This document shows, piece after piece, positions 19,537 to 26,543 of a DNA stretch of 64,000 nucleotides. The DNA is from Flavobacterium sp. N2270 (GTDB taxonomy: Bacteria; Bacteroidota; Bacteroidia; Flavobacteriales; Flavobacteriaceae). Under the pieces are notes generated by a model that was given only the letters and a program-made list of their open reading frames with translations, made no database searches and had not been told where the DNA came from. Both the position numbers and the translations under genes were made by a program. The DNA lies in contig NZ_CP110005.1 of the NCBI RefSeq assembly GCF_025947225.1, positions 2,542,001-2,606,000 of the forward strand, written 5' to 3'. The first letter of the stretch is position 1; every line of letters starts with the position of its first letter.

Positions 19537-20472
19537 ATGCCATTAATTTCTGTTGTAATTCCGTTGTACAATAAAGGTTTCATTATAAAAGAAACTTTAG
19601 AATCTGTATTGGAACAAACGTTTACCGATTATGAAATTATAATTGTAGACGATGGTTCAACAGACAATGGTTATGAAGTTGTAAAAGAATTTTCCGATAA
19701 TAGAATTCACTTATTTCAACAAGAGAACAAAGGAGCAGCATCGGCAAGGAATCTAGGAATTGAAAAAAGTGCAGGAATTTACATTGCTTTTTTAGATGCA
19801 GATGATCATTGGGAAACTAATCATTTAGAAGAATTAGTAAAACTAGCTGATAAATATCCAAATTGTGGTGCATATTGTTCGAGATATCAAATAAAAAACT
19901 CAATAAATTCAATACATCAACCATATTTTAAGAATATCACAAATGATTTTTATGGAATTGTTGAGAATTATTTTGCATCAAATCATCCCTATAAAATAAA
20001 CATTACTTTAAATCAAATGATTCCTAGAAATATTTTAATGGAATTAGGTTGTTTTACAGAATCAATTACAAATGGTCAGGATCTAGAATTATGGACAAAA
20101 ATAGCTATAAAATATCCTGTTGCATTACACAATAAAACTACGACAACATATAATTATTATTTACCTAATTCTCTATCAAAAAAGAGCATTAAATCAATGA
20201 AACTGATGGATTTTAGTCAGTTTTTAGAAAATGAAAAACAAAACGAAGATTTAAAAGACTTTTTAGACAAATACCGAATTGAATATGCTTTACAGTATAA
20301 AATTGCTGGTGATTATGAAAATTCAAAAAAATATTTAACCGAAGTTAAAAAAACGAACATTTCACTTATAACAAAAATATTATTCAACATTCCTTCAAAA
20401 ATATTAAAGAAATTATTAGCTTTTAAACATTGGTTAAGAAAAAAAGGAATTGATTTTACGGTTTATAATTAA
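19537..20472 (+). CDS. Family 2 glycosyltransferase
   Basis: A 311-residue GT2 enzyme. PLISVVIPLYNKGFIIKET begins the GT-A domain, followed by EIIIVDDGSTDNGYEVV (UDP-sugar binding), NKGAASARNLGI, and the DxD-like IAFLDADDHWE near residues 85-95. The catalytic-base region may be TNGQDLELWTKIA near 185. It starts on the base after the upstream GT2 stop and runs tail to tail into the FdtA-like gene, with 4 overlapping bases. Codon use is like its neighbours. Donor and acceptor cannot be told from sequence. It forms the end of the forward ftsE-GT2-GT2 unit. Confidence 0.88.
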   Translation: MPLISVVIPLYNKGFIIKETLESVLEQTFTDYEIIIVDDGSTDNGYEVVKEFSDNRIHLFQQENKGAASARNLGIEKSAGIYIAFLDADDHWETNHLEELVKLADKYPNCGAYCSRYQIKNSINSIHQPYFKNITNDFYGIVENYFASNHPYKINITLNQMIPRNILMELGCFTESITNGQDLELWTKIAIKYPVALHNKTTTTYNYYLPNSLSKKSIKSMKLMDFSQFLENEKQNEDLKDFLDKYRIEYALQYKIAGDYENSKKYLTEVKKTNISLITKILFNIPSKILKKLLAFKHWLRKKGIDFTVYN

Positions 20473-20873
20473 GACTCCTTTTTTAAGAAAATTTCAAAAT
20501 CTCTAATATAATCTTCTTCTTTAAAAACATCGGAAGCAATAACTAAACAAACCGATCCCGAAGAAAAGTTTTTTAATTCACGCCAAATTCCATTGCTTAT
20601 TAGTAACCCTTCAAAAGGCTTATTTAAAGTAATTTTTTTTTGATCATTTCCATCGTTAAGAATAACATCAAAACTTCCAGAAAGTGCAATTAAAAACTCT
20701 TGTTGCTCTATGTGCGAATGGCCGCCACGTTCAGCAGCACTAGGAACATCATATAGATAATAAACACGTTTTATTGGATAAGGAATTACATCATTTTCTA
20801 TAACCGAAAGATTACCTCTTGGATCTTCAATTTTAGGTATTTTAAGTAATTTACAGTCTGATATATTTCGCAT
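20469..20873 (-). CDS. FdtA/QdtA-family sugar 3,4-ketoisomerase (cupin)
   Basis: A 134-residue cupin of the WxcM/FdtA family. These enzymes convert dTDP-4-keto-6-deoxyglucose to the 3-keto isomer, the step before a 3-amination. The markers are IEDPRGNLSVIE at residues 15-26, RVYYLYDVPSAAERGGHSH near 40-58 with the conserved histidines, and NGIWRELKNFS near 95. Stereochemistry (FdtA or QdtA type) cannot be decided by eye. It overlaps the upstream GT2 by 23 bases. The FdtB-like aminotransferase at 25440-26543 is its natural partner, in the same locus and on the same strand. Confidence 0.8.
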   Translation of the reverse strand: MRNISDCKLLKIPKIEDPRGNLSVIENDVIPYPIKRVYYLYDVPSAAERGGHSHIEQQEFLIALSGSFDVILNDGNDQKKITLNKPFEGLLISNGIWRELKNFSSGSVCLVIASDVFKEEDYIRDFEIFLKKES

Positions 20874-25439: not shown

Positions 25440-26543
25440 TTAGTAGTTATTTAAAGTGGCAATGATTTTATTGATTTCTGCTTCCGTCAAAGTTCCGTTT
25501 AAAGGAATACTTAAAACCTCATCATGAATTTTCTCTGAGATAGGATAAGACAAAACATTCCAATCTTTTAACGCTTTTTGTTTGTGTGGTGGAATTGGAT
25601 AGTGAATCATTGTTTCAATTCCGTTTTTAAGTAAATATTCTTTTAAATCATTTCTGTTTTTTGTTCGAATGACAAACAAATGAAAAACATGAATCTCTGA
25701 ATAGTCCCAAAAAGGAAGAATTATTTTTTCGTTTTTTATTTCAGTTAAATAGCGTTTTGCAATTTCTCTACGAATTTGATTTTCTTTATCAAGTTCTGGT
25801 AATTTTACATTTAAAAAAGCAGCTTGCAATTCGTCTAAACGAGAATTAACTCCAATTAATTCATTTTCATATTTTACTTTAGAGCCATAATTTCGAAGTG
25901 AAAATAAAACCTCAGCCAATTCATCATCATTTGTGGTAATGGCACCAGCATCGCCAAGAGCACCTAAATTTTTTCCTGGATAAAAGCTATATGCTGACGC
26001 TGATTTAAGATTGTTGATTGCTGATTGTTGATTGTTGAATTTAGAACCGTGTGATTGAGCTGCATCTTCAATAATCAACAAATTATTTTTTTGAGCAATT
26101 TTGTTAATAGCCTCCATTTCACACAATTGACCGTATAAATGAACCGGTAAAATGGCTTTAGTTTTAGAGGTAATTTTAGCCTCAATTAAATCCGGATTTA
26201 AATTATATGTTTCTAATCTTGGTTCAACCAAAACCGGAACTAAATCAGCCTCAAGAACTGCTAAAATAGTCGCTATATAAGTATTTGAAGGAACTATTAC
26301 TTCATCTCCTTTTTGTATTTTCCCTAAATGAATATTGGCTTTTAAAATTAAAACCAAAGCATCTAAACCATTACCAACACCAATGCAGTGTTTTGCTCCA
26401 CAATATTGCGCAAAACTTTCTTCAAAAAGCTTTACTTCCTTTCCTAAAATATACCATCCACCTTCTAAAAATTGTTCCATTTTTTGTTTGAAAGCGCTCT
26501 CAAAAGTTTGGTTTACTTTTTTTAAATCTAGGAATTTTATCAT
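25440..26543 (-). CDS. FdtB-like sugar aminotransferase (DegT/DnrJ/EryC1/StrS family)
   Basis: A 367-residue PLP enzyme. With the FdtA-like cupin it should make a dTDP-3-amino-3,6-dideoxyhexose by amination at C3. Motifs: IKFLDLKKVNQ at the N-terminus, GVGNGLDALVLILKA near 55-70, VPSNTYIATILAVLEA near 87-105, the PLP-contact aspartate in LLIIEDAAQSHGS near 155-167, and the PLP lysine K191 in SFYPGKNLGALGDAGAI. Residues 170-179 (NNQQSAINNL) are encoded by a heptanucleotide tandem repeat not typical of the family. The gene overlaps the upstream acyltransferase gene by 4 bases (ATGA) and is one base from the flippase start. Confidence 0.85.
   Translation of the reverse strand: MIKFLDLKKVNQTFESAFKQKMEQFLEGGWYILGKEVKLFEESFAQYCGAKHCIGVGNGLDALVLILKANIHLGKIQKGDEVIVPSNTYIATILAVLEADLVPVLVEPRLETYNLNPDLIEAKITSKTKAILPVHLYGQLCEMEAINKIAQKNNLLIIEDAAQSHGSKFNNQQSAINNLKSASAYSFYPGKNLGALGDAGAITTNDDELAEVLFSLRNYGSKVKYENELIGVNSRLDELQAAFLNVKLPELDKENQIRREIAKRYLTEIKNEKIILPFWDYSEIHVFHLFVIRTKNRNDLKEYLLKNGIETMIHYPIPPHKQKALKDWNVLSYPISEKIHDEVLSIPLNGTLTEAEINKIIATLNNY
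26009..26036 (-). repeat. Four tandem heptanucleotides inside the fdtB-like gene
   Basis: On the coding strand the repeat is AACAATC, AACAATC, AGCAATC, AACAATC. It is read through in frame as NNQQSAINNL, directly upstream of the PLP lysine codon (25971-25973). Because seven is not a multiple of three, gain or loss of one unit would shift the frame. Confidence 0.85.

Follow-up and report, generated by a model that had tools for sequence, protein, structure and literature searches.

An array of four AACAATC-type heptamers is read in frame in the FdtB/QdtB-like aminotransferase gene of Flavobacterium sp. N2270, just before the family lysine, in a loop where other species of the genus carry heptamers of other kinds. 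The repeats of this loop were observed to share one place, to show a 7-nt periodicity in about half of the loops, to come in many kinds and to be dispersed elsewhere in the genomes searched. We consider it likely that dispersed, mostly non-coding repeats have been captured in frame at permissive positions of proteins, with replacement or exchange in the course of time. The different repeats that related bacteria carry in this loop, and in loops of another enzyme, suggest that protein segments are repeatedly built in this way and speak against an on/off switch. In the following, the window is the whole 64 000-nt stretch of DNA that was analysed, and the coordinates of all features are collected in Table 1.

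The array and its host enzyme

On the minus strand, the array consists of the units AACAATC AACAATC AGCAATC AACAATC (window letters GATTGTTGATTGCTGATTGTTGATTGTT), and TRF delimited it at 26009-26038 with a period of 7, 4.3 copies and 91% matches. Its first unit begins in phase 0 at codon 170, and the array encodes NNQQSAINNL as residues 170-179. The preliminary description of four AACAATC-type units in frame at these residues, just before K191, was thus confirmed by the sequence, by TRF and by the frame check. The array was the only segment of the window with a lag-7 score of at least 17 and no such segment occurred in 60 second-order Markov windows, which places it beyond chance; among 500 codon shuffles of its own loop, none matched its score. 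At most two of its units are identical and uninterrupted, and it is a direct repeat and not a palindrome.

Both the domain and the fold of the DegT/DnrJ/EryC1 family were present in the host enzyme (PF01041 and TM-score, respectively). Its best solved relatives, by sequence as well as by fold, were HCAN_0200 (7n63), WlaRG (5u1z) and QdtB (3frk), with a TM-score of 0.87 to both 3frk and 5u1z. K191 was invariant in 31 aligned proteins and was aligned with the family lysine of the solved relatives, the title of one of which names a K184A mutant; by homology, we take K191 to be the PLP lysine. Because an FdtA-like gene lies in the same cluster, a dTDP-3-amino sugar pathway is likely at this locus, with 3-amination predicted to be carried out by the FdtB-like enzyme.

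The window protein has its sequence and fold in common with the FdtB/QdtB/WlaRG 3-aminotransferases, but differs from them in that repeat-encoded residues replace the loop before the lysine. This loop is two residues longer than in the best solved relatives and the family wording is gone from it, so the suggestion that the inserted residues replace family-typical wording was borne out against both the solved relatives and the orthologues described below. A structure model from 31 sequences had a mean pLDDT of 80.1, with values below 50 at residues 165-182 and further low-confidence segments at residues 221-232 and 316-326, and on this model the loop is probably flexible.

Table 1. Features discussed in the text (positions are those of the window unless another locus is named)
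Feature	Position	Strand	Basis
FdtB/QdtB-like dTDP-sugar 3-aminotransferase (DegT/DnrJ/EryC1 family), 367 aa	25440..26543	-	PF01041 4.3e-104
Hypervariable loop, residues 167-184, SKFNNQQSAINNLKSASA, between AQSHG and YSFYPGK	25992..26045	-	156 orthologues; pLDDT <50 at 165-182
Heptamer array, AACAATC x4 (one AGCAATC), read as NNQQSAINN(L)	26009..26036	-	sequence reading, TRF, frame check
Codon of K191, lysine of PGKN, family PLP position	25971..25973	-	alignment position, homology
Block divergent in L229, ~115 nt	25998..26112	-	alignment, bounds approximate
FdtA-like sugar ketoisomerase, likely pathway partner, same cluster	20469..20873	-	PF05523 FdtA 4.1e-50
aroA, three heptamer arrays in three loops	L285:16926-18170 = G000:C1:316926-318170		TIGR01356 above its cut-off
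Methyltransferase, N-terminus of translated AACAATC units, MSTINNQQSEINNQQSN	L001:765-1547, G000:C1 around 1503298-1503332		

The loop across the genus

We compared 156 orthologues (L009-L164, the window's own included), which were chosen as best matches and are therefore biased to intact genes. In the 155 aligned orthologues, insertions and deletions were almost confined to residues 168-180, with small inserts after residue 281 in 6 sequences and after residue 327 in 12, and the loops were 10 to 36 residues long. The partial sequence L036 was excluded from this gap profile and from the periodicity test, and a looser loop pattern was used for L064, L111 and L113. The match rate at lag 7 was 0.457 in the loops versus 0.277 in the rest of the genes, with further peaks at lags 14 and 21. 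After dereplication, 79 of 150 loops beat their codon shuffles at lag 7 (p ≤ 0.01) compared with 0/150 control stretches, and other lags were significant in 0-2 of the 150 loops, except for lag 8 (7 loops) and the harmonic lag 14 (71 loops). Significant periodicity was absent in 71/150 loops, and a family-type tail was kept in 50 of the 156.

An insertion unique to this strain, a possibility raised at the outset, was ruled out by these comparisons, since other heptamers occupy the equivalent position in many species. The loop fold as such does not attract repeats either: in paralogous aminotransferases from 20 genomes of the genus, the loop was constant at 21 residues and was periodic in 0/20. 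Long loops with repeat-like DNA at the same position were also seen in the Winogradskyella orthologues L254, L256 and L262.

The units found in the loop include AACAATC, TAAAATC, AAAAATC, AATTCCA, GAAAGCC, GAATTAC, TTCAGTA, AACCGAC and TTGGAAG. Grouping the arrays of 73 of the 156 loops (p ≤ 0.01 and score ≥ 8; arrays of 15-53 nt) gave 16 kinds when kinds differed at two or more of the seven positions and 7 kinds when they differed at three or more, numbers that rule out a single sequence family. AACAATC, TAAAATC and AAAAATC were grouped as one kind, and the loops that carry them, mostly of 17 residues, may share an ancestral array. The array-bearing loops had 17 residues in 32 cases, 24 in 5 and 31 in 4; lengths of 23, 25 and 32 residues were found in 4 loops each, so that 24 and 31 were no commoner, and three-unit steps in loop length are weakly supported. 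Hairpin-like repeats of four patterns, written after the loops had been seen, were matched by 11/156 loops, 7 of which belong to the imperfect CTCTGAGCG-AGTCGAAGAG kind.

The frame through the array depends on the number of units, as it does in phase-variable repeats. In a simple unit count, 2, 3, 5 and 6 units led to proteins ending at 174, 190, 181 and 197 residues, respectively, and the frame stayed open with 4 or 7 units, so the arithmetic by which the preliminary description had a gained or lost unit shift the frame is sound. From this arithmetic it had proposed phase variation, in which the gain or loss of one heptamer would remove K191 and turn synthesis of the 3-amino sugar off or on, and the FdtA-like and polysaccharide-synthesis-like genes nearby would suit such a switch. 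We nevertheless regard it as very unlikely. Both sides of the loop were in one open frame in 156/156 orthologues (best matches, in which intact genes are favoured), and 20 re-examined genomes, most of which showed only distant paralogues, yielded no array-bearing gene in an off state; these 20 were taken from the 38 genomes of the genus without a strong match, and both sets have one genome per species. One of the 20, the draft genome G151, has an fdtB-like gene out of frame at the loop (L169, G151:C30:900-2600), with no heptamers there. A split gene was ruled out in G126, where the loop is long but the frame is open throughout; in G163 pieces of the gene lie on two contigs, and in G073 the gene has masked bases.

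The array shares with the phase-variable simple sequence repeats of Haemophilus influenzae a unit length that is not a multiple of three, but it is short and impure where examples in the available part of that survey have 13, 16 and 38 copies (PMC2651432), and none of the array-bearing genes seen here was in an off state. With at most two identical uninterrupted units, it falls below the three-unit limit that the same part of the survey gives for heptanucleotides (PMC2651432). Arrays also occur in AroA, which is not a surface-sugar gene (see below). Since the off genes with arrays, the one-unit steps and the long pure arrays that fast switching predicts were not seen in the sequences compared, a fast switch is unsupported; slow switching may occur through off variants that are rare in a population. 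If the capture reading is right, it also cautions against taking a non-triplet repeat in a sugar gene, on its own, as evidence of phase variation.

On a quick tree of 156 tips built without the loop, array state changed no fewer than 58 times and array presence no fewer than 39 times, both of which numbers are inflated because they depend on a cut-off near which loops lie. In the closest named relative, the metagenome bin L229 (PKEA01000060.1), most of the 50-base bins over ~4 kb had at least 48 bases in common with the window, the bins below 48 having 41 at -150, 45 at 1150 and 47 at 1550. Within these near-identical flanks, L229 has a divergent block of ~115 nt with a loop that differs from that of the window and is 21 nt shorter; because the wording differs, this speaks for exchange and not for a simple loss of three units, although a metagenome bin such as L229 could be chimeric. 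Between two of the near metagenome proteins, P0003 and P0007, the loop difference is QNLEFRN, seven residues corresponding to the size of three heptamers (at the protein level only). Proteins near that of the window had 360, 361, 366, 367, 369, 371 and 390 residues, and the protein and loop lengths rule out that near relatives differ only in 7-residue steps.

A selected function could also be considered, in which the loop would be under diversifying selection, for example for partner binding, and the repeats would serve as raw material. The short block, loop included, in which the otherwise near-identical L229 diverges, the several loop alleles found on backgrounds 93-98% identical and the constant loop of the paralogues would all be in keeping with this, but similar repeats are present in AroA and in a methyltransferase, and we think such a function improbable as the explanation.

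Dispersal in genomes and arrays in other genes

Both hairpin-like families tested were dispersed in genomes. The CTCTGAGCG-AGTCGAAGAG pattern was found in 8 of the 10 genomes searched, in each of them at two or more places outside fdtB, and was absent from the window's own genome and from G263. TGCTGAACTNGTTTCAGCATC had 31 occurrences in G263, of which one falls within the fdtB of that genome, 4 in G012, 1 in the window's own genome and 0 in G288. Three heptamer kinds were searched in 25 genomes. Where a kind was present in fdtB, a further copy was found in the same genome in 7 of 8 cases, compared with 12/67 of the other genome-kind pairs by hand tally (Fisher p 0.0002, with related genomes and with kinds picked after the loops had been seen). 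Control patterns read backward were found in 1/25 genomes for AACAATC, 4/25 for AATTCCA and 0/25 for the third kind.

In 464 kb comprising 20 stretches of 20 other genomes and the window, eight period-7 arrays reached a score of 14 or more, compared with 0-3 arrays for each remaining period between 5 and 12. Seven of the eight lay outside ORFs, in 4 of the 20 stretches, and the eighth was the array in question. In another 464 kb, consisting of 20 stretches of the window's own genome and the window, period-7 arrays with a score of at least 11 numbered 9 outside and 6 inside ORFs, and other periods gave 1-10 in all; inside ORFs, lag 7 (6 arrays) was no more frequent than lags 6, 9 and 12 (6, 6 and 8, respectively). 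The genome contains one other full AACAATC array, itself inside the methyltransferase gene. The statement in the preliminary description that AACAATC-like wording occurs as intergenic repeat DNA in flavobacteria held in the genomes searched, although the other full array of this genome is intragenic.

Three further loci were noted in these genomes. In G267, a non-ORF array of 240 nt (L191:2655-2895) passes from AATTGTG-type into ACATCTA-type units, which looks like the replacement of one kind by another on the spot. A membrane-protein-like gene of G164 (L202:1125-1883), which adjoins a sigma-factor-like gene (both names from reading only), has an AACAATC array that is open within its frame of 253 residues, and at another locus of that genome (L195 around 1500-1545) the AACAATC units stop just before an ATG.

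Dispersal bears on whether copying between sites is needed at all, as pure in-place slippage would produce local 7-nt duplications wherever the protein tolerates them. The many kinds within one genome would be consistent with this, as would the account of Mrazek et al. 2007 in the available part of PMC4679880, according to which heptanucleotides are the commonest repeat category in most genomes studied, perhaps reflecting a polymerase contact length. However, individual kinds are found again at several sites, with the fdtB kind tending to be among them, and the hairpin-like families of the same loops are dispersed; we hold pure slippage to be possible but rather doubtful.

The suggested search of the genome for other heptamer runs in genes was productive: the six intragenic arrays are distributed over fdtB (one), aroA (three), a methyltransferase-like gene (one) and a YggS-like gene (one), the last two names being from reading only. 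Among 30 AroA sequences, the three loops were periodic in 6, 6 and 7, in loop windows set after the sequences had been seen, and loop 2 has heptamers that differ by species or, instead, a TGCTGAACT hairpin repeat. The N-terminus of the methyltransferase that contains the other full AACAATC array was periodic in 5/29 sequences, some with other units (30 of 60 matches were taken, of which 29 were readable and L358 was left out). In-frame repeats are therefore present in several unrelated genes, namely those of FdtB, AroA and a methyltransferase.

Proposed origin and comparison with known systems

We propose that the array derives from heptanucleotide repeat DNA that is dispersed and for the most part non-coding, and that it resides in frame in a permissive loop of the FdtB-like enzyme. 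Arrays would arrive by copying from the repeat pool of the genome or by 7-nt slippage, and slippage would also make the units within one array alike. Only frame-keeping changes would survive, recombination would swap loop alleles, and the position of the arrays in the loop would be due to its tolerance. Because 7 and 3 have no common factor, a pure heptamer array gives one cyclic heptapeptide in any frame (here NNQQSTI), and a stop-free array is therefore a ready-made polar linker. In all 14 of the loops with two or more TAAAATC units (14/14), no such unit was in the frame that reads TAA; the open frames require this, but it still marks where the uniformity yields. Rather than a switch, the loop is probably a flexible spacer that the enzyme tolerates.

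On balance, we lean towards a wider process in Flavobacterium and perhaps its relatives, in which heptamer arrays and hairpin repeats would be copied in frame into exposed positions of enzymes, genome-wide and still ongoing, with kinds being replaced and alleles swapped, such that, within the genus, the sequence of this one loop would have been renewed dozens of times. If this is true, new protein segments are made from non-coding DNA, aided by the frame-independent peptide cycle of stop-free heptamer arrays, and a single loop compared across species would be a natural record of non-coding repeats becoming protein, in enzymes that can be assayed. To our knowledge, the origin and spread of bacterial heptamer repeats are not settled, and their kinds, places and replacement can be traced here across hundreds of genomes.

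A literature search of titles and abstract starts, mostly outside subscription journals, recognised no description of repeats inside Flavobacterium enzymes and no paper pairing 'heptanucleotide repeat' with Flavobacterium. By analogy, the closest known case would be the Rickettsia palindromic element inside genes. In the available part of PMC10969869, these elements are likewise dispersed repeats in frame inside unrelated protein-coding genes, but they are ~150 bp long with a conserved peptide, whereas the Flavobacterium repeats are mainly heptamers with some short hairpins. As with the Rickettsia elements, the same repeats were found dispersed elsewhere in the genomes searched. PMC2996958, also available in part, deals with a palindromic repeat that forms coding sequence in a diverse range of microbes.

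Judged by likeness, the closest repeat DNA would be the heptamer-derived satellites of prokaryotes (PMC6749651) and the TAACTGA class (PMC4679880), each source being available in part. The satellites include heptamer-derived families, one of them listed for Flavobacterium psychrophilum, and some lie within genes, but the available part of that source describes no single loop filled by different repeats across species (PMC6749651). The TAACTGA-class heptanucleotide direct repeats are reported from Beggiatoaceae, Cyanobacteria and some Bacteroidetes as dispersed heptamer arrays that, in the genome described, lie mostly just upstream of start codons (PMC4679880, in part), a placement shared by the AACAATC units before the ATG in G164. 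According to the same part of that source, one heptamer is favoured there (PMC4679880), whereas many kinds, some of them inside enzymes, were found here.
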